A stretch of 64,000 bases of DNA from Thermodesulfobium narugense DSM 14796 (GTDB lineage: Bacteria > Thermodesulfobiota > Thermodesulfobiia > Thermodesulfobiales > Thermodesulfobiaceae), in the NCBI RefSeq assembly GCF_000212395.1, contig NC_015499.1:1075001-1139000 (forward strand), read 5' to 3'. Both the position numbers and the translations under genes were made by a program. Each line of letters begins with the position of its first letter. Position 1 is the first letter of the stretch. Under the pieces are notes generated by a model. It ran no database searches. It was given only the letters and a program-made list of their open reading frames with translations, and was not told the origin of the DNA. Shown piece after piece: positions 2,425 to 11,738 of this stretch.

Positions 2425-2454
2425 TTGACAACAAAGTTTCTTTTGTGTTATAAA
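2425..2454 (+). promoter_or_regulatory. Consensus sigma-70 promoter of the fluoride-riboswitch operon
   Basis: TTGACA (2425-2430) and TATAAA (2449-2454) are separated by 18 bp. The predicted transcription start, about 2460, falls right at the first base-paired element of the riboswitch aptamer. Confidence 0.85.
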
Positions 2455-2462
2455 AAAATATC

Positions 2463-2528
2463 GGTGATGGAGTTCACCGTAATGCCCCATAGATGGCTGA
2501 TGACTCCTAGTATATTTTGTTAAGGAGT
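2463..2528 (+). promoter_or_regulatory. Fluoride riboswitch (crcB motif) with possible Shine-Dalgarno sequestration
   Basis: The aptamer core matches the crcB/fluoride motif: GGTG...CACC stem (2463-2466/2475-2478) enclosing ATGGAGTT, and the downstream hallmark GGCTGATGACTCCTA (2495-2509). The pseudoknot is GGAGT (2469-2473) with ACTCC (2503-2507). An alternative hairpin is visible: ACTCCT (2503-2508) can pair with AGGAGT (2523-2528), which contains the only strong AGGAG Shine-Dalgarno. Fluoride binding would commit ACTCC to the pseudoknot and free AGGAG, giving an ON switch at translation level. The motif match is direct; the switching mechanism is inference. Confidence 0.93.
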
Positions 2529-2538
2529 TGAAACGCCA

Positions 2539-2577
2539 ATGACTTTCACTTGTCAAAAAGGCAAAAATTATGCTTAG
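2539..2577 (+). CDS. Possible 12-codon leader peptide overlapping hyfC-like start
   Basis: An ATG 11 bases after the switchable AGGAG opens a 12-codon frame (MTFTCQKGKNYA) whose TAG stop at 2575-2577 lies just past the ATG of the next gene at 2570. The downstream gene has only a weak AAGG of its own. The arrangement would let ribosomes recruited by the exposed Shine-Dalgarno couple into the operon. No coding statistics can support so short a frame, so it is a proposal only. Confidence 0.3.
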   Translation: MTFTCQKGKNYA

Positions 2578-3532
2578 TAAAGATTTTGAGCTCTTAGCCC
2601 TATCTTTTGTCCAATTAATTTACGTTGTAACCCTTGCTCCCCTTGCAATAGGCATACTCAGAAAGGTTGAAGAAAGAATAGAATCAAAAATTGGTCCATC
2701 AATCTTTCAAGAGTATTACAACCTCTTTAAATTTTTCAAAAAACAAAGTACATATCCTATCACCACATCGGTCCTTTTCGAGATCACGCCATATCTAACC
2801 TTTGCAATGTATCTATTATTGACTCTTGTATTGCCTATCATTACTGCCTTTCCTCTTACTTTCGGTCCAGTGGTTGACTTTATAGGAGGTGGGTTAATTT
2901 TCGCAGCAGCATCTACATTAAAAAAGATAGCAGCCCTTGACACAAGAAACAATTATTCTATTCTTGGTGCATCCAGAGCATCATCAATTGGGGTCTTCAC
3001 AGAACCTATATTATTACTCATATTTATAATGTTCGGAGTAATATCTGGAACGAATAATCCTTATGTAATTAACAACATACTCCAAACATCTAATTTGTGG
3101 TACTTTTCACTAACACATATCTTTATTGCAGCGGCATTCTTTTTTCTTCTGATCATCGAGACAGGTAGCTTGCCTATTGAATCTGATTCTAGCAACGAGC
3201 TTGGCATGATAGATCAATCTCTAAATCTTGAATATTCAGGGAAAGAGCTTGCTCTAAATAAATGGGGAAGCTATATAAAAGCCTTCTTGTTAATGAACGT
3301 GTTTATAAACGTGTTCACATTCCCATTCTTTGTGCCAATGCAAATGAATATATTAAATGTTCTTATATACATGTTCATTAACTTTTTCAAGATGTTAATT
3401 CTAATCTTTATCTTCGCCCTTATAAACACTACCCTTTCAAAGTATAGATTGATGAAAATATTTGATTTCATATCGGTAGGCTTCGCCTTTGCACTTATTG
3501 CAATGATAGTCTTTTATATCACGAAAATGTGA
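2570..3532 (+). CDS. hyfC: Membrane subunit of complex I/hydrogenase-4-like complex (NuoH/HyfC type)
   Basis: This integral membrane subunit of the NuoH/HycD/HyfC family links the soluble arm to the antiporter-like arm. The 320 residues hold about eight hydrophobic helices. Conserved family features are the early segment LAPLAIGILRKVEERIESKIGPS, the Phe/Lys-rich loop after it, and the acidic loop IETGSLPIESDSSNELGMIDQ in the second half. It is the first gene of the six-gene operon behind the fluoride riboswitch and is followed 8 bp later by the HyfE-like gene. Unlike usual formate hydrogenlyase operons, no ferredoxin-like electron-carrier gene (HyfA/HyfH, NuoI) precedes or follows it. Confidence 0.88.
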   Translation: MLSKDFELLALSFVQLIYVVTLAPLAIGILRKVEERIESKIGPSIFQEYYNLFKFFKKQSTYPITTSVLFEITPYLTFAMYLLLTLVLPIITAFPLTFGPVVDFIGGGLIFAAASTLKKIAALDTRNNYSILGASRASSIGVFTEPILLLIFIMFGVISGTNNPYVINNILQTSNLWYFSLTHIFIAAAFFFLLIIETGSLPIESDSSNELGMIDQSLNLEYSGKELALNKWGSYIKAFLLMNVFINVFTFPFFVPMQMNILNVLIYMFINFFKMLILIFIFALINTTLSKYRLMKIFDFISVGFAFALIAMIVFYITKM

Positions 3533-3540
3533 GGTAGAAA

Positions 3541-4164
3541 ATGCAAAATAATATATTTATACTGGTTGGATTTATACAGATAATACTGATAGTTTTTATG
3601 CAGTGGCAATCTTATATTTCCACTACAATAAAAACCTTTGATCTTTCTTCATGGATATTGGGGATTTTTCTTCTTGCCATAGGCATTATAAATAGAGAGC
3701 CTACTTTAATAATTCTTGCAATTTTAACCATCTTAACCAGAGCCATTTTTATCCCTCGATATCTTTTAAAAACGATTAAAAAGGATATTTGGAGAGTTAG
3801 AGAGTCGAAAAATCCACTTGGCGTGAGCCTTTCGATCATCATTTCTATCTGTCTTGCGCTTTTTAGTTATGGGCTATATTCAATAGCTCTGTCAAATTCT
3901 GGCTCAGTTCTGGAATCTATCCCCATCACCCTCATGCTACAAGGTGCTTTTCTGATTATTTCAAAGTCAAATGCGTACAATCAGTTGATTGGATATTTGG
4001 TAATGGAGAACTCTATCTTTCTTTTTGGATATATCTTCAGTGGACTCCCTTTCATAGTAGAGGCAGGCATAGTACTCGATATATTGGGAATTGTCTTGGT
4101 TAGCTCCATAATAATGAGGCTCAGAAAGGAAAATATAGACAATGAGGAGGAGCTATACGGATGA
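3541..4164 (+). CDS. hyfE: Hydrogenase-4 component E-like membrane protein (HyfE)
   Basis: This small polytopic membrane subunit, 207 residues with about six hydrophobic segments, is of the HyfE/NuoK-like type that sits between the NuoH-like and the antiporter-like subunits. Assignment rests on length, hydropathy, and its position between HyfC-like and HyfF-like genes, plus similarity in ILAILTILTRAIFIPRYL and the C-terminal helices. It overlaps the next gene by 4 bp (ATGA), indicating translational coupling. It carries no metal ligands and is expected to contribute to proton translocation or the core of the membrane arm. Confidence 0.8.
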   Translation: MQNNIFILVGFIQIILIVFMQWQSYISTTIKTFDLSSWILGIFLLAIGIINREPTLIILAILTILTRAIFIPRYLLKTIKKDIWRVRESKNPLGVSLSIIISICLALFSYGLYSIALSNSGSVLESIPITLMLQGAFLIISKSNAYNQLIGYLVMENSIFLFGYIFSGLPFIVEAGIVLDILGIVLVSSIIMRLRKENIDNEEELYG

Positions 4165-5537
4165 TTAATTTTGAATTTATTTATCTACTACCCTGTCTAA
4201 TTTCTTTTATTGCATCAATTATTGGCTTTTTTGCATTTAAAAGATTTGCAAAAACCATTTCTATTGCGTCCTCTGTGCTTTGTATATTATCAGTCATTGT
4301 AGGATTTTGGGAGCCAACTGTACAAAACAACTACCTATACGTTGACAATCTTTCCAAGGTATTCTCTCTAATGATATCAATTGTATATTTAAGCGTTGTA
4401 ATTTTTTCCATAGAATATATCAATCACATTGAAAACAAACTGATAAAAGTTCATCAGTATTTTAGTTTATTGAATATCTTCGTCTCAGCTCTATTTGCAT
4501 CAGTTGTATTGAACAACCTTGGCTTAATTTGGGTAGGAATTGAAGCCACAACCTTTACTAGCGCTCTCCTAGTATCTACCCAAAACGACTCAATTGCAGT
4601 CGAGGCAGCATACAGATATATAATAATTGTGTCAGTTGGCTTAATAATATCTCTTATAGCTACCCTATTTATATACTCTAGCGAGAAAACACTATCCATA
4701 TTTAGCTTATTGCAACTCCACCCAACTGATAGCATATTTTTATTGGGCTCTCTCTTGTCAATCATTGGATACGGCACTAAGGCGGGCATCTTCCCAATGT
4801 ACACATGGCTTCCTGACGCTCACGGAAAGGCTCCAGCACCAGTGAGCGCTATATTTTCTGCAGTACTCTTGCCAGTCTCCCTTTATCCTTTGATTAGAAT
4901 ATTTGAAATATTTCCAAATTACTACCTTAGCCTCTTTGCATTTTCTTTAGGATTTCTTAGCGTGGCTACAGCAGCTATCATTGCAGGCTCACAAACAATT
5001 TACAAGAGACTGTTTGCTTATTCTTCAATTGAAAATATGGGCATGTCCTTGATTGGCATCAGCCTTGGAACTTTTGGTCTCTTTGGAGCTATAATTCTAA
5101 TCTTCTCCCATGCCCTTGCAAAGTCAGGAACCTTTATGCTGACTGGCAACATACTTCACAGATTTAAAACTAAAAAAATTGAAGATGTAAAAAATATGAT
5201 AAACCTTATGCCAAAAACAGGCTTATTCTTCTTCTTCGGTTCTCTTGCTGTGACAGGAGCTCCACCATTTGCTACCTTTGTGGGGGAGCTGATAATACTA
5301 TCAAAGGTAATCCAAATATATGGCTATATCACAGGAGCGGTGCTGTTTGCGTTTTTGTGCATTGCGTTTCTCTTTATTAACAACAAAGTCATATCCATGG
5401 TGTTCAGTGAGTCTGACAAAAAACCTTTTATTGAAAGCAAATTCGTATACATTCCTATGATAAGTATTTCTTTGTCCCTGTTATTCTTGATTGCAATTCC
5501 ATTTTTATACAGCTTTCTTGGAGGAATAATAAAATGA
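4161..5537 (+). CDS. hyfF: Proton-antiporter-like subunit (HyfF/NuoN-M-L type)
   Basis: This 458-residue Proton_antipo_M subunit has about 13-14 transmembrane helices. The residues that form the proton channel in this family are present: Glu128 in WVGIEATT, Lys207 in YGTKAGIFPMYTWLPDAHGKAPAPVSA, Lys321 in SHALAKSGTFM and Glu376 in FVGELI. The ion-pumping machinery therefore looks functional, in contrast to the degenerate soluble subunits encoded just downstream. It overlaps both neighbours by 4 bp, so it is translated as part of a tight operon. Confidence 0.9.
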   Translation: MINFEFIYLLPCLISFIASIIGFFAFKRFAKTISIASSVLCILSVIVGFWEPTVQNNYLYVDNLSKVFSLMISIVYLSVVIFSIEYINHIENKLIKVHQYFSLLNIFVSALFASVVLNNLGLIWVGIEATTFTSALLVSTQNDSIAVEAAYRYIIIVSVGLIISLIATLFIYSSEKTLSIFSLLQLHPTDSIFLLGSLLSIIGYGTKAGIFPMYTWLPDAHGKAPAPVSAIFSAVLLPVSLYPLIRIFEIFPNYYLSLFAFSLGFLSVATAAIIAGSQTIYKRLFAYSSIENMGMSLIGISLGTFGLFGAIILIFSHALAKSGTFMLTGNILHRFKTKKIEDVKNMINLMPKTGLFFFFGSLAVTGAPPFATFVGELIILSKVIQIYGYITGAVLFAFLCIAFLFINNKVISMVFSESDKKPFIESKFVYIPMISISLSLLFLIAIPFLYSFLGGIIK

Positions 5538-6769
5538 AAAGACTTTTAGGGATAATATCTTCAGATAATACAGAAAAATTACTTGTATCCTCTGGCACAT
5601 TTATAGGGCTTGTTGATCTATCTCAAAAAACAGACTTTAAGTATTATGACTGGCTTAGAGATAGAGATTATGTTTACACAGATTCTAACATTGCATCAGA
5701 AGAGGTATTTAATTTCAGGCTAGGTCCTTTAGCAGGAGCCAATCAGGAGTGCTCAATCTACCATCTTAAAACTTATGGTGAAAGAATGCTTGCAGTAAAC
5801 ATAGACCAAACCTATAAATCACGAAAGATTGAAAATCTTATGGTTGGTCGATCTTTTGATGAGGCCATACCTCTTGCAGAGTCAGTTTGCTCAAACTTTG
5901 CATTTTCTCACTCTGTAGCATTTACTCAGGCAATAGAAGAGGCCCTTGGTATAGAGCTAAGCGACTATTCAAAGCTTCTAAGGGTAATATTCTTAGAAAT
6001 AGAGAGAATTTATAATCATATTTATGTTATTGCAAAGCTCTCTATATCAGCAGCCCAAAAAGTTTATTCTTCTCATCTATTATACTTGTTCGAAAGATGC
6101 ATTTCTTTAAACTCAAAATACTTTAACTCCACCTTCTTAAAGAAGATAAAGAGGGTTGGAGAGGTCAAAGATTTTCCGAAAGAGCTTTTCCTAAATTACT
6201 TAGAAGAGCTAAAAAAAGTAGTAAATGAATTTAAGAAAATATACAATTTCAGTTTAGACAGCAGAAATTATTTAGACAGACTTCACAATACAGGAATTCT
6301 AACAATAGAAGATTTTTATAACATTGGCTTTGATGGGCCAGCGCTTAAAGCGATGAATTACAGTCTTGATATTAGAGAATTTAGCAAAACCACAAAAAAT
6401 TTCAAACCCATATTGGAAGAAGAGGGAGACTCGCTTGCCAGAATGATAGTAAGAGCCAAAGAAGTTAGTCAGTCTTTGGAAATCATAGAAGAATCGATAG
6501 AATTACTTCAAGAAACTCAACCAGAAAGCCCAAAATCTCTAAAGACTTCTCAAAAGAGAGACTCAGGAATCGGTCAAAGTGAATCGGCAAGTGGAACGAT
6601 AACATACTATGTAGAGATCAAAGATCAAAAGATTGACTATGTATATATCAGTACACCATCCACCTTTCTATTTAGGGCTATCCAAAAGGCATTGGTAGGA
6701 CAGATATTTACAGACTTTCCTTTTATAGTCGATTCTTTTGGGGCATTTTTCTGTGACTGTGCAAGATAA
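5534..6769 (+). CDS. Degenerate [NiFe]-hydrogenase large subunit / NuoD homolog lacking metal ligands (Ehr type)
   Basis: This homolog of HycE/HyfG/EchE and NuoD (411 residues) retains the helix ELSDYSKLLRVIFLEIERIYNHIY typical of the family. The N-terminal nickel motif CxxC is reduced to C119-S-N-F122. The C-terminal DPCxxC is replaced by DSFGAFF followed by C407-D-C409 and AR-stop. Neither a NiFe site nor the quinone-site His of NuoD's GPQHP loop is present; here it reads GPLAGANQ. A polar low-complexity insert of roughly 30 residues precedes the last domain. There is no NuoC domain. Loss of ligands is as in energy-converting-hydrogenase-related (Ehr) complexes, so hydrogen turnover is very unlikely. 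Confidence 0.85.
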   Translation: MKRLLGIISSDNTEKLLVSSGTFIGLVDLSQKTDFKYYDWLRDRDYVYTDSNIASEEVFNFRLGPLAGANQECSIYHLKTYGERMLAVNIDQTYKSRKIENLMVGRSFDEAIPLAESVCSNFAFSHSVAFTQAIEEALGIELSDYSKLLRVIFLEIERIYNHIYVIAKLSISAAQKVYSSHLLYLFERCISLNSKYFNSTFLKKIKRVGEVKDFPKELFLNYLEELKKVVNEFKKIYNFSLDSRNYLDRLHNTGILTIEDFYNIGFDGPALKAMNYSLDIREFSKTTKNFKPILEEEGDSLARMIVRAKEVSQSLEIIEESIELLQETQPESPKSLKTSQKRDSGIGQSESASGTITYYVEIKDQKIDYVYISTPSTFLFRAIQKALVGQIFTDFPFIVDSFGAFFCDCAR

Positions 6770-6790
6770 AAAATATCAAGGAGGAAAAAA

Positions 6791-7258
6791 TTGTTCTGGC
6801 CAATTTATGGTTTAACAAAAAAATATACTGAAAAAAAATTAAATATTTCAAAATTAAATCTCAAGCAACTATATATAAAAAATATTTTTAAGAGGTCTAT
6901 CCACATATTTTGCATAGATGTAGGAAATGATAATGCCTTAAACTTTGAAATATTTGCGCTTTTGTCGCCAAAATACAATTTACACAGGCTTGGCATATTT
7001 TTTACTCAAACACCAAGGGAGGCCGATCTTTTGATCGTTTTAGGCAGGCCAACTGAAAAAATGGTCCCCCTAATGCTAGAAGCTATAAATCAAATGCCAG
7101 AACCATTTGGCGTACTGTTAACTGAGAACAACGACCTGGGCCTTAGTTTTGACAATTTCGATATACCCAATGTAATAGGCCATATTAAGGGTGATGTCTC
7201 AAGAGATGAAATGCTTTCCTACATATTAGCCTTCATGAAAGGTGATGAGAAAAAATGA
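6791..7258 (+). CDS. Degenerate hydrogenase small subunit / NuoB homolog without Fe-S cluster cysteines
   Basis: This 155-residue homolog of HyfI/HycG/NuoB starts at TTG 6791, with AAGGAGG six bases upstream. The fold signature is clear: RSIHIFCIDVG, SPKYNLHRLGIFFTQTPREADLLIVLGRPTEKM, and INQMPEPFGVLL. Where NuoB has C-x-G-C and GxCA ligands for cluster N2, this protein reads GNDNALNFE and TENNDLG. The only cysteine is C41, not at a ligand position. The subunit should therefore be unable to bind the proximal [4Fe-4S] cluster. Combined with the degenerate large subunit, the soluble arm appears redox-silent. The stop overlaps the next start by 4 bp. Confidence 0.85.
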   Translation: MFWPIYGLTKKYTEKKLNISKLNLKQLYIKNIFKRSIHIFCIDVGNDNALNFEIFALLSPKYNLHRLGIFFTQTPREADLLIVLGRPTEKMVPLMLEAINQMPEPFGVLLTENNDLGLSFDNFDIPNVIGHIKGDVSRDEMLSYILAFMKGDEKK

Positions 7259-9132
7259 TATTTTATACATTAAGTGTTGTTTGTTTTTTGCTTGGAATAA
7301 TTTCTTTTTTTAAGAATAAATTAAGCTGCATTTTTGCTGTGCTTGGATCTGTTTTTTCAATAACAGTTGGCATATTGAGGTTTGAAAGATCCCTAAATAT
7401 TCTAAATCTTGTGCTATTTCCAGATATATCGTTGAGGCTTGGAATCGATAAGACATCTTCAATCTTTTTGATAATAGCCTTTATCTCTTTTGGGATAATC
7501 GCATTTTATTCGATAGACTTTAACAAACTATTTAGCAAGAAGATGGCACTCTTTATAAATATTTCAATGCTTGCAATGTTTTTTATCTTGACAGCTCAAG
7601 ATGCAATAACCTTTTTGATTTCATTCGAATGTATGACCATAGCAATATTTTTTAGCATTCTTGAGAGAAAAAATACATATAAAGAGGCATTTAGCTTTCT
7701 TGCATTTAGCGAAGCATCATCTATAGCTCTTTTTATTGCATTTGGCGCACTTTGGGCTCAGACTGGGAGCTTTATCATAGCGAATGCTGTAGGCAATATT
7801 GTATTTATGAGCTTTGCTTATCTAGCATTCATAATAAAAATGGACATAATCCCCTTTCACGTCTGGATAAGCTCCACATACTCGAAATCTCCTTCAAACG
7901 TAGCTGCAATACTTTCTGTACCAGTTACCCTAATAGGAACTTATGGCATATTTAGAATATTTGCTTTAAACCCAAACATAGAAATATTTTCAATCATAAG
8001 CATTTTATTAGGTTCTGTTAGCGCTCTTTGGGGAGCACTCCAGGCGGCTAGATCCAGGAGCCTTAAAAAATTGCCAGCTTACTCTACCATAGAGAACAAT
8101 TCCATGATACTTGCAAGCTTAGGCATAGCTTACTTAACTGCAAACACACAAAGTCTTCAGTACCTATCGCAATTTGCCATGCTTACTGCATTATTTATAA
8201 TAATTTCACACTCGTTTTCCAAGACAGCTCTTTTTCTCTCAATAGGACATGCAAAAGAGGCTTTTTCAGAAGAGCTAATTGACAATGTAGGAGGAGTTTT
8301 CAAATATGTAAGCAAGATAACTGGCTTAGGCATAATTATCGCAGGTCTTTCTCTAAGCGCCTTCCCTCCCCTGATAGGCTTTGTATCCGATTGGATGTTA
8401 CTCGAAACCTTCTTCCAATCTTACAAGATTGATGATTTATCTTTAAAATTAATCGTAACCTTTTCTGCAATTTTAATTACTCTTGCAATAGGTCTTAGCT
8501 CATTTGGTATGAAAAAATTAATAGGATTTAGCGCACTTGGAACAAAAACTAAAGAAGTGATAAATATTGAATCGCTGACGATGAAAATTTCTGAAGCTAT
8601 CCTGATATTTCTGGTTATCGCCTTAGGATTTATATCGCCTTTGATTGTAATTTGTCTCGGATATCCTACATTCTTAGATGGCCTTTTGGCGGTCCCGAAG
8701 CCTCTTTTGATAGTATCAAGCAGGCCAATTTTTGGAGTCTTGTCTCCAACAATATTCGCAATTATGATTTTTATATTTTTCGTAGCTCTTTGGAAATTAA
8801 AGAGCAAGGAAAAAGATGTAAAAAGGGTGTCACCGTGGGTTGGAGGATTAGAGGTTTTGAGCACTGAATCGTTTAAAATAGGCGCCTATTCATTTATAGT
8901 AGAATCTCTCCTAAAGCCTCTCAATCAAACTAAAGAAATAAGAGAAGGCGATACAGCCTATGTTTACAGTATAGACTTAATAGAGACATTTTACTCATTT
9001 ATCACAAAGCTTTCTAACAAGATAAGCTCTTTCTTCTCAAAGACTATTATGAACTCAAGCATCCACTGGTATATAGCATACATAATAGGCGCATTTATTA
9101 TAACCTTGATGTATTTTAAAATTATAAAATAA
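7255..9132 (+). CDS. hyfB: Large antiporter-like membrane subunit (HyfB/NuoL type)
   Basis: This 625-residue Proton_antipo_M protein has an extended C-terminus, like HyfB. Channel residues are present: Glu125 in SFECMTIA, Lys195 in FIIKMDIIPFHVW, and the Lys of SHSFSKTALFLS. The C-terminal soluble-like segment SPWVGGLEVLSTESFKIGAYSFIVESLLKPL, followed by a last helix, resembles the tail of HyfB-type subunits. It is the final gene of the operon; a separate consensus promoter for the next gene begins at 9139. With the HyfF-like protein it provides two potential ion-translocating modules. Confidence 0.88.
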   Translation: MIFYTLSVVCFLLGIISFFKNKLSCIFAVLGSVFSITVGILRFERSLNILNLVLFPDISLRLGIDKTSSIFLIIAFISFGIIAFYSIDFNKLFSKKMALFINISMLAMFFILTAQDAITFLISFECMTIAIFFSILERKNTYKEAFSFLAFSEASSIALFIAFGALWAQTGSFIIANAVGNIVFMSFAYLAFIIKMDIIPFHVWISSTYSKSPSNVAAILSVPVTLIGTYGIFRIFALNPNIEIFSIISILLGSVSALWGALQAARSRSLKKLPAYSTIENNSMILASLGIAYLTANTQSLQYLSQFAMLTALFIIISHSFSKTALFLSIGHAKEAFSEELIDNVGGVFKYVSKITGLGIIIAGLSLSAFPPLIGFVSDWMLLETFFQSYKIDDLSLKLIVTFSAILITLAIGLSSFGMKKLIGFSALGTKTKEVINIESLTMKISEAILIFLVIALGFISPLIVICLGYPTFLDGLLAVPKPLLIVSSRPIFGVLSPTIFAIMIFIFFVALWKLKSKEKDVKRVSPWVGGLEVLSTESFKIGAYSFIVESLLKPLNQTKEIREGDTAYVYSIDLIETFYSFITKLSNKISSFFSKTIMNSSIHWYIAYIIGAFIITLMYFKIIK

Positions 9133-9138
9133 AATTAT

Positions 9139-9168
9139 TTGACATTTGATTAAAAATTTAAATATAAT
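9139..9168 (+). promoter_or_regulatory. Consensus promoter giving a leaderless transcript
   Basis: TTGACA (9139-9144), an 18-bp spacer and TATAAT (9163-9168) precede the ATG at 9178 by nine bases. The expected start of transcription is at or within two bases of the ATG, and no Shine-Dalgarno is present. Confidence 0.85.
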
Positions 9169-9177
9169 CATCATATT

Positions 9178-11738
9178 ATGACCCAAAAAGATAATTTTTT
9201 TGAAATAGTTTCTAAAACGAACGAAATTTTTTTGCAAAATATTGACAAACCAGAGGTTTTAATTGATAAACTCTTAGAAATAATTGCAAAGGATTTCAAA
9301 CTTAGGCTTATCTGGCTCGGATTAATCAAAGACAACGATATTTTATTTTCCAAGCCATATGGCCCAGCTTCTGAATACATAAACCAGGACGCTGACTATA
9401 AAAAGAAAATGCTCCAGACATTATTGAACGTAATTAAAGAAAAAAACCTTTAATAGTTAATAATCTCTTACTAGACAAAAGATTCGAATATGCATATGAA
9501 AAAGCTAGGGAGTATAACCTTAATTCAGTTACAGTATTTCCAATCTTACCAAATGATAAAATCTCAGGGATTTTGAGCATATATTCTGACGAAATAGGCT
9601 TTTTTACCACTAGAAAGATAGAAATATTGTCCAATCTTGCCAGCACATTTGGCGTTGTCTTAAGCATAATAGAAAATATGAAAGAAAAATTTCTTTTGGA
9701 AGACGTATTAAGCAGATCTATTCAAGGCATTGTAATAACCGACTCAGATAATAAAATCATTTATACCAATCCTGCCTTTACCAAAATCACCGGTTATTCC
9801 CGAGAAGAAACAATTGGTCAGAACCCCTCAATACTAAAATCAGATATGCACTCAAAGGAATTTTACTCAGATATGTGGAAGAAATTAAAAAAAGATGGTT
9901 TCTTTAGTGGAAAAATATACAATAAAAGGAAAGATGGAACTATATATCCAGAAATCATAACAATTAGCATAATAAAAGACAATGAGGGCAAAATAATTTA
10001 TTATACAAGTTTCTTTATAGATATTTCAGACATAGAAGATAAAGATAAAAAAATTAAATATCTTATGTTTCACGATTCAAAAACAGGACTTTTAAATACA
10101 AAGGGTTTTTATGATAAATTAAATGAACTTGCAACAAATAAAAACAACTTTATAGTGGTTTATATTGATTTAGACAACTTTGCATATTTAAATACGCTTT
10201 ATGGAATAGAAAATGGCGATCTTTTATTAAAGGATTTTGGACAATTCTTAGAGCAAGATGTTTGTAAGAAGGAAGATTATGTGTGCTATTTTGGTTCTGA
10301 CGAATTTGCAATAATTTCACTTAACAAAACATCTGAAAACGCAACAGATTATATAAAAGAACTTAATATTAAAATAAAAAATAAAGAGTTCAATATTAAT
10401 TCCAATAAAGTTAAGCTATCTGGCTGTATCGGCGTTTCCATGTATCCTGTGGATTCAAACAAGCCAGATTCAATAATTAGTTTTGCTCAAGCATCATGCG
10501 TAAAAGCAAAGCAGATTGGAAAGGGTCAGTGCGTTTTCTATAGCGAATCAATTCAGAAAGAATTTGAAAATAAGCTACACCTTCATACTGAAATAACTCA
10601 AGCTATAGAAAGATTTGAATTTGAATTATTTTATCAGCCTATTTTCGAAATAAGTTCCAAATCTATAAACCACGCCGAAGCTCTTATTAGGTGGAGACAC
10701 AATGAGAGGGGCATTTTATCGCCTTATGCCTTTATACCTTTTGCCGAAGAGTCCGACTTAATAGAAAAAATTGACTACTACGTTATAGAGAAAAGCCTAA
10801 ACGATCTAAAAACCCTTCAAGATCATAACATAAACATGTCCATATCAGCCAATCTCACCAGCAAAACATTTTTGTCAGATAACTTCTTGGAAAATTTTAA
10901 AAAGATATTTTATAAAAAAAATATTAACCCAAATCATTATAGGTTTGAAATCACTGAATCAATAGCCCTCTCAAATGTAGAACGAACCAAAAAATACATT
11001 GAAGAACTTGGAAAAATTGGAATATATTTCAATATGGATGACTTTGGAACAGGATACTCGTCTTTGTCATATTTAAACCGTTTTAATTTTAAAAACATCA
11101 AGATAGATTCAAGCTTTGTATTAAATTACGAGAAGGATTACAAACTCGCAACACTCGTTTCTTCAATAATTAATATGTTAAATAGCTTAAACTTTGATAT
11201 CACCGCAGAAGGAATTGAAAACGAATTCTTATTTTTTGCCTTCAACCACTTAAACTGCCATTTCTTACAGGGTTATTTTTTGTCAAAACCTATACCTTTG
11301 AAAAACTTTATTTCCTTTATAAAAAACTTTAAGTTAGACAATACTCTTTTAGACTTTTTAAGAAAGAGCACAAAAACAATGGACTTTGATCTAATAAGGG
11401 CTAAATATGAAATTTATAGATTTATCAAAAGAATTGAAAGCATTGTTCAAGAAAAAAAATTTGGAGAGAATCTATATGTTTTGAAAGATTACAAAAATTG
11501 TGCATTTGGAAAGTGGTACTACTCTAACATTGAAAAATATAAAAACTTTAAGATATTTAAGGACATTGAGACCAATCATGTAGCTTTACACAAAATAACT
11601 GAAAAACTAATAAGTGAATTGCCTAATGAAAAAATTCTTTACAAAGATTTAGAAAAGCTTAAAAAACGCGCATTTAAACTAAACAGTTTGGTTGATAATC
11701 TAGAAATTGAAAGTTTTTGTATGGTACCAAAAAACTGA
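9178..11738 (+). CDS. GAF-PAS-GGDEF-EAL-CZB cyclic-di-GMP protein split by a -1 frameshift at 9441-9447
   Basis: The first frame (9178-9453) encodes the N-terminal half of a GAF-like domain and ends KEKNL-stop. The -1 frame continues the GAF domain (PLIVNNLLLDKRFEYAYEKAR...) without stops to 11738. Then follow a PAS domain (IVITDSDNKIIYTNPAFTKITGYSREE), a GGDEF domain with a degenerate GSDEF signature, and an EAL domain with EAL, NLTS, ITES, MDDFGTGYSS, KIDSSF and AEGIEN. A CZB-type zinc-binding tail (CAFGKWYYS and HVALHK) completes it. The phosphodiesterase looks active; the cyclase is doubtful. Either a programmed -1 shift makes the full protein, or the gene or its sequence carries an indel. 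An internal start at or after 9573 would give a GAF-less protein. Confidence 0.8.
9441..9447 (+). other. Candidate -1 ribosomal slippery heptamer A AAA AAC
   Basis: In the zero frame the codons read GAA AAA AAC CTT TAA, so the heptamer is phased exactly as X XXY YYZ. Slippage by -1 enters the open downstream frame four codons before the zero-frame position where translation would stop. A weak interrupted hairpin (9462-9469 with 9477-9484) lies 14 bases downstream, further than usual for a stimulator. Confidence 0.45.

Follow-up and report, generated by a model that had tools for sequence, protein, structure and literature searches.

A fluoride riboswitch precedes a complex I-like membrane complex predicted to lack an electron path in Thermodesulfobium narugense

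The closest described relatives of the complex considered here are the group 4 [NiFe] hydrogenases of the formate hydrogenlyase (FHL) and Hyf type (HycBCDEFG, HyfA-J). Energy-converting hydrogenase-related (Ehr) complexes are defined as relatives of group 4 hydrogenases that are devoid of the Ni-Fe ligands (PMC6349859). Published accounts of the genes next to fluoride riboswitch motifs include formate hydrogenlyase (PMC2864571, PMC11139923), as the initial annotation of the present locus had noted; Na+/H+ antiporters are also among the published neighbours, and the proton-motive force is disturbed by HF stress (PMC11139923). We analysed a window of 64,000 nucleotides from Thermodesulfobium narugense DSM 14796 (NC_015499.1, positions 1,075,001 to 1,139,000), in which a fluoride riboswitch aptamer (2454-2516) precedes an operon of six genes (2570-9132), all on the forward strand; positions are those of the window. 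The operon encodes, in this order, NuoH/HycD-like, HyfE-like, HyfF-like, NuoD/HycE-like, NuoB/HycG-like, and HyfB-like subunits. The membrane subunits and the peripheral folds resemble those of FHL and Hyf, with HycD, HycC, HycE, and HycG as the nearest solved proteins. Unlike FHL and Hyf, however, the complex lacks a complete Ni-Fe site, an N2 cluster, a ferredoxin subunit, and a formate dehydrogenase.

The large subunit (NuoD/HycE-like, 5534-6769; PF00346, 8e-22) retains one of the four Ni-Fe ligand cysteines. In the alignment, its ligand columns read C119, F122, F405, and D408 (CFFD), compared with CCCC in intact hydrogenases. The small subunit (NuoB/HycG-like, 6791-7258; NuoB family 1e-11, HycG 5e-10) holds no cluster cysteine at all: VGNDNAL replaces the CGGCNGC of HycG, and the proximal 4Fe-4S cysteines of group 4 hydrogenases are missing, as is the C-terminal cysteine region. 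AlphaFold2 models nevertheless kept both folds, with HycE as best solved match of the large subunit (pLDDT 88) and HycG/MbhJ as nearest solved relatives of the small subunit (pLDDT 80). The initial annotation had claimed that the large subunit lacks the full Ni-Fe ligand set, the small subunit the NuoB cluster cysteines, and the operon a ferredoxin subunit gene, and all three claims held. It had named intact ligands elsewhere and a ferredoxin subunit as grounds for abandoning this view; sequence alignment revealed no further metal ligands in the two subunits, and no ferredoxin or formate dehydrogenase gene is present among the six genes. We predict from these alignments that the complex of the window has no continuous electron path.

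The aptamer is identified by sequence as a good member of the crcB motif family (RF01734), scoring 43.5 bits where the gathering score is 34; its core and its pseudoknot strands are conserved, and fluoride-ON control is predicted. It is the only RF01734 copy in the closed 1.90 Mb genome. Both the crcB-type aptamer and the consensus promoter of the initial annotation were thus recovered, the latter as a promoter-like element at 2425-2454 (forward strand) comprising TTGACA (2425-2430), a spacer of 18 nt, and TATAAA (2449-2454). It was read directly in the sequence and is a consensus match only, with 11 of 12 letters; an automatic promoter scan requires T as the final letter and therefore does not list this TATAAA box.

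Further operons were retrieved by searches of relatives and of 84,980 species genomes, and their large subunits fell into two sorts. The first ends in [ST]FG....[DE], and its fourth ligand column holds D or E in 16/16 sequences; the second ends in a SFNLSYSGND-type motif or CxxC, as in Ehr and true hydrogenases. In the first sort (hereafter the fluoride group), every one of the 15 genomes with available upstream DNA has a fluoride riboswitch immediately ahead of the NuoH-like gene that opens the operon, versus 0/75 Ehr-type or hydrogenase operons (Fisher p 2e-17, ignoring kinship). The 15 comprise T. narugense (G000), G001, G002, G099, G366, G100, G129, G095, G237, G209, and the genomes of loci L077, L080, L081, L082, and L132. 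Two further operons cut off by contig ends (L079 and L083) are outside this count, and two loci sharing contigs with others (L076 with G001, L078 with G100) were counted once each. Two of the 15 matches are weak, namely L080 (20.7 bits, own model R1) and G100 (32.7 bits, slightly below the Rfam cut-off). As R1 was built from matches including some leaders of the group, its scores there are not independent, whereas the Rfam matches are. Among operons of the second sort, L136 showed one weak riboswitch match (24.8 bits) about 2 kb from the NuoH-like gene. The fluoride group spans several bacterial phyla and one archaeon, with 40-50% identity and the same gene order across phyla; named carriers include Desulfurellales, metagenome-assembled genomes labelled Bacteroidetes and Spirochaetales, and one member of the Sulfolobales. 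Some carriers may stem from vents or acidic sites. In the congener G003, operon and riboswitch are both absent. Two carriers show additional features: in G095, a CitMHS-family transporter gene lies between the large- and small-subunit genes (L068:6713-7768), and in G099 the operon is followed by a molybdenum/tungsten cofactor riboswitch (RF01055, 87 bits; L033:12799-12918) upstream of substrate-binding-protein-like genes.

A 41-row tree of large subunits separated the fluoride group from Ehr complexes and hydrogenases (98/93), which places it outside the clade that holds FHL and Hyf; the unity of the group was weaker (91/36) when the tree was rooted on the NuoD of this genome. The fluoride group therefore does not fall together with Ehr, although it shares with Ehr the Mrp-like subunits and a group 4-like large subunit without Ni-Fe ligands, which is what the loose definition asks for (PMC6349859). 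Nearly all Ehr loci of our dataset differ from it: they retain the small-subunit cysteines, their ligand columns hold S/G, and the NuoH position discussed below is His. No member of the fluoride group has the four Ni-Fe cysteines, and the Ni-Fe site is predicted to be gone in the whole group. The N2-type cysteines have a more varied history. All are still present in L068, L225, and the archaeal L082. In L066 and L132, which read GTSA and PGSPPPP or PGMPPSP, they were replaced by other residues (C to S or M), and in an 11-row branch containing the window they disappeared together with a truncation. At least two losses of the N2-type cluster within the group are indicated, and two separate losses would be the simplest account. 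An N-terminal ferredoxin-like segment persists in the small subunits of L066, L132, L068, L225, and L082, so that the statement that there is no redox centre at all is limited to the branch of the window. For this whole branch, the term redox-dead used by the initial annotation is apt, but it does not extend to some deeper members of the group, whose small subunits retain Fe-S cysteines.

Other complexes encountered in these comparisons also deviate from the canonical ligand pattern. The Ehr-type locus L234 (G023:C45:47000-66000) has no fluoride riboswitch; in its small subunit, too, the N2 cysteines are gone, with IPGDPPSP and a single remaining Cys. Another group 4-like complex of the genus (L228, G003:C1:948000-966000) shows CSCS at the ligand columns and a shifted C-terminal motif, FELCYSSCDR. 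The other group 4 hydrogenase large subunit of T. narugense itself (L238:12706-13827; G000:C1 ~617768-618811, minus strand) reads LERVCGI-TGA-SMSH, where the in-frame TGA takes the place of the second cysteine of the N-terminal CxxC. One in-frame TGA is likewise found in this gene in G001, G002, and G003, and selenocysteine is probably used at a Ni ligand of this hydrogenase.

The six genes of the fluoride operon are under strong purifying selection, as pN/pS between the window and its congeners amounted to 0-0.15 (G002) and 0-0.21 (G001); the HyfF frame of G001 contains one in-frame stop in that metagenome assembly. Four genes encode membrane subunits. The first, at 2570-3532, is NuoH/HycD/HyfC-like (PF00146, 5e-30), with E. 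coli HycD as best solved relative (1e-32). It is followed by a HyfE-like subunit (3541-4164; NCBIfam hydrogenase 4 membrane subunit, 1e-9, below cut-off) and a HyfF-like antiporter-type subunit (4161-5537; PF00361, 8e-49; HyfF, 3e-109), and the operon ends with a HyfB-like terminal antiporter-type subunit (7255-9132; PF00361, 9e-25; HyfB, 8e-86; HycC, 2e-28). The genes had been described as six overlapping ones, which applies to three junctions, each overlapping by 4 bases; at the remaining two, the genes are separated by 8 and 21 bases. In agreement with the earlier claim that the antiporter-like subunits keep their channel Glu and Lys residues, HyfF-like E128, K207, and K321 are present in all group members with a letter at these positions and H221 in 15/16, and HyfB-like E125, K195, H319, and K323 are kept across the group. 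The same applies to E210 and E221 of the NuoH-like and E156 and D180 of the HyfE-like subunit. Two acidic residues are specific to the group: NuoH-like D215 (15/15; His in 75/75 others) and HyfB-like E384 (16/16; mostly Gln elsewhere). Their presence in membrane subunits is consistent with a changed ion path.

Two further families offer points of comparison. With respiratory complex I, the complex shares homologues of NuoB, NuoD, NuoH, and NuoL/M/N as well as an acidic fourth ligand column, as found in the NuoD of this genome; it differs by the absence of an NADH or ferredoxin module and of cluster N2, and by HyfE in place of NuoJ/K. Like the Mrp cation/proton antiporters, it would be a redox-free multi-subunit machine, and the HyfF-like subunit matches MrpA and MrpD chains, the HyfB-like subunit MrpA chains. 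The operon does not, however, provide the MrpA-G set: MrpE, MrpF, and MrpG are missing, and homologues of NuoH, NuoD, and NuoB are present, none of which is known from Mrp. Taken by its sequence features, the fluoride complex falls outside the definitions of hydrogenases and Mrp and within the loose definition of Ehr, yet it appears as a group of its own.

The reading that we consider best, at a probability of about 60%, is that of a fluoride-induced translocator for fluoride/acid stress, driven by ion gradients instead of redox reactions. HF would enter the cell and dissociate, the riboswitch would turn on, and the complex would be made and move ions on an existing gradient in the manner of an Mrp-type secondary transporter. 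Without an electron path, it could only work on gradients or ligand binding. Its most likely task would be proton/cation exchange by which cytoplasmic pH and membrane potential are brought back to normal. An exchange that counters the acid carried in by HF is the most economical interpretation; the initial annotation had already suggested proton/ion translocation against HF acidification, and the conserved channel residues are consistent with it. The chief alternative in this frame would be a coupling of proton movement to the export of fluoride by way of the former catalytic cavity. Since the large and small subunits are under selection, their junction with the NuoH-like subunit should still have a task. 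Several observations weigh against a gradient-driven translocator. A plain Mrp-like antiporter would not need the large and small subunits, yet both are strongly selected, so that they must have some task beyond that of such an antiporter. Since L068, L225, and L082 have the full set of N2-type cysteines, the group is not redox-free throughout. Finally, a replacement of the fluoride channel Fluc (CrcB) by the complex was considered but found no support, as CrcB is present in 6/14 carrier genomes compared with 62/145 background genomes, i.e., its absence (8/14 versus 83/145) is not enriched in carriers.

A tentative alternative, to which we assign a clearly minor share, is that the complex itself exports fluoride, with inward protons passing the antiporter-like subunits and driving F-/HF out through the former catalytic/quinone cavity between the large, small, and NuoH-like subunits. 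The operon is the sole riboswitch-controlled unit in this genome, which encodes no CrcB (PF02537). Its single CLC scored 108 bits to H+/Cl- exchangers versus 34 bits to CLC-F, so a hidden CLC-F was rejected and neither of the known exporters Fluc and CLC-F is present. The archaeon G390 likewise has neither CrcB nor any CLC. Fluoride export would also fit the selection on peripheral subunits without redox function and the group-specific acidic D215 and E384. On the other hand, we identified no halide site, carriers such as G129, G388, and G392 have CrcB too, and the congener G003 is devoid of complex, CrcB, and riboswitch, which implies that the genus can do without an exporter. It is speculative, and in our estimate improbable, that these operons represent a third class of fluoride exporters, in which a redox-stripped complex I-family machine would couple ion movement in its two antiporter-like subunits to F-/HF extrusion via the vacated cavity.

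Quite unlikely is a redox enzyme of the formate hydrogenlyase or Ehr-like kind that has its partner encoded elsewhere and is altered by fluoride in its expression only. The published mention of formate hydrogenlyase among fluoride-motif neighbours (PMC2864571, PMC11139923) would agree with it, as would the basal L068, L225, and L082 with their four N2-type cysteines and ferredoxin-like segment. In the branch of the window, however, neither peripheral subunit has an Fe-S ligand and 1/4 Ni-Fe ligands is left, the operon has no formate dehydrogenase or ferredoxin gene, and the N2 ligands disappeared independently in another lineage. A regulated proton/ion leak or membrane-potential valve, proposed in place of an antiporter, would account for channel residues preserved without a driving reaction and for a proton-motive force disturbed by HF stress (PMC11139923), but we regard it as very improbable: a leak would worsen acidification, and building one from two large antiporter-like subunits is expensive. 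That a decaying hydrogenase remnant came to lie behind a riboswitch by chance, with ligand loss as the expected outcome of decay, is refuted by purifying selection (pN/pS 0-0.21) and by conservation, i.e., full-length genes, 40-50% identity and the same gene order across phyla, and the riboswitch in 15/15.

The operon shares its aptamer with the known fluoride riboswitch regulon (crcB/Fluc, CLC-F, CPA antiporters, DUF190) and its genomic islands with it in L080 and L066. It comes after riboswitch-crcB-DUF190 in L080, where a dynamin-like GTPase gene was confirmed by Pfam, and the operons of L066 and L224 have DUF190, or HAD and zinc-ribbon genes, in their vicinity. In contrast to the rest of this regulon, the effector belongs to a defined group of complex I-family machines and is not a single-gene transporter. 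Regarding other neighbours of fluoride operons, small zinc-ribbon/HEAT-repeat-like proteins recur (L224:2261-3092, next to a HAD-family gene; L081:17484-17819), and a dynamin-like GTPase, judged by eye, is the first long open reading frame (ORF) behind fluoride riboswitches in L039, L044, L054, L056, and L060.

Between aptamer and operon, a putative expression platform spans 2502-2529 (forward strand). In the minimum free energy fold, GACUCCU of the aptamer 3' strand (2502-2508) pairs with a Shine-Dalgarno-like AGGAGUU (2523-2529), which suggests that fluoride would free the latter. The energy z-score of this hairpin is only -1.0 in a pseudoknot-free fold and thus not exceptional; we therefore dropped the hairpin as proof of translational control and keep it as a suggestion. 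Complementary pieces are also present in the leaders of L034 and L077, while L068 has a terminator-like hairpin instead. AGGAGUU sits just upstream of a putative 12-codon leader ORF (MTFTCQKGKNYA; 2539-2577, forward strand), which was read from the sequence, overlaps the start of the first gene, and has its frame preserved in the congener L036. Downstream of the operon, a PAS-GGDEF-EAL-CZB sensor gene (9178-11738) appears split into ORFs at 9178-9453 and 9573-11738, where L036 has a single 856-codon frame; a perfect TTGACA-18-TATAAT lies by this gene at 9139-9168.

In the open-licence literature, we found no description of the fluoride-linked group or its missing ligands beyond the formate hydrogenlyase statements. 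The operons annotated as formate hydrogenlyase beside fluoride switches look like a dedicated ion machine for fluoride tolerance. The published reading, by which formate hydrogenlyase is a metabolic response to fluoride, would be corrected, as the sampled riboswitch-linked operons form one group without Ni-Fe site. The group would offer natural complex I relatives in which the electron path vanished, independently in two branches, and selection went on to retain the membrane machine. Such relatives may make a long-standing question testable, namely how the antiporter-like subunits work and which role the NuoH/NuoD/NuoB junction plays without electrons. Should the complex indeed export fluoride, it would add a new type to the known exporters, one that may suit acid habitats.

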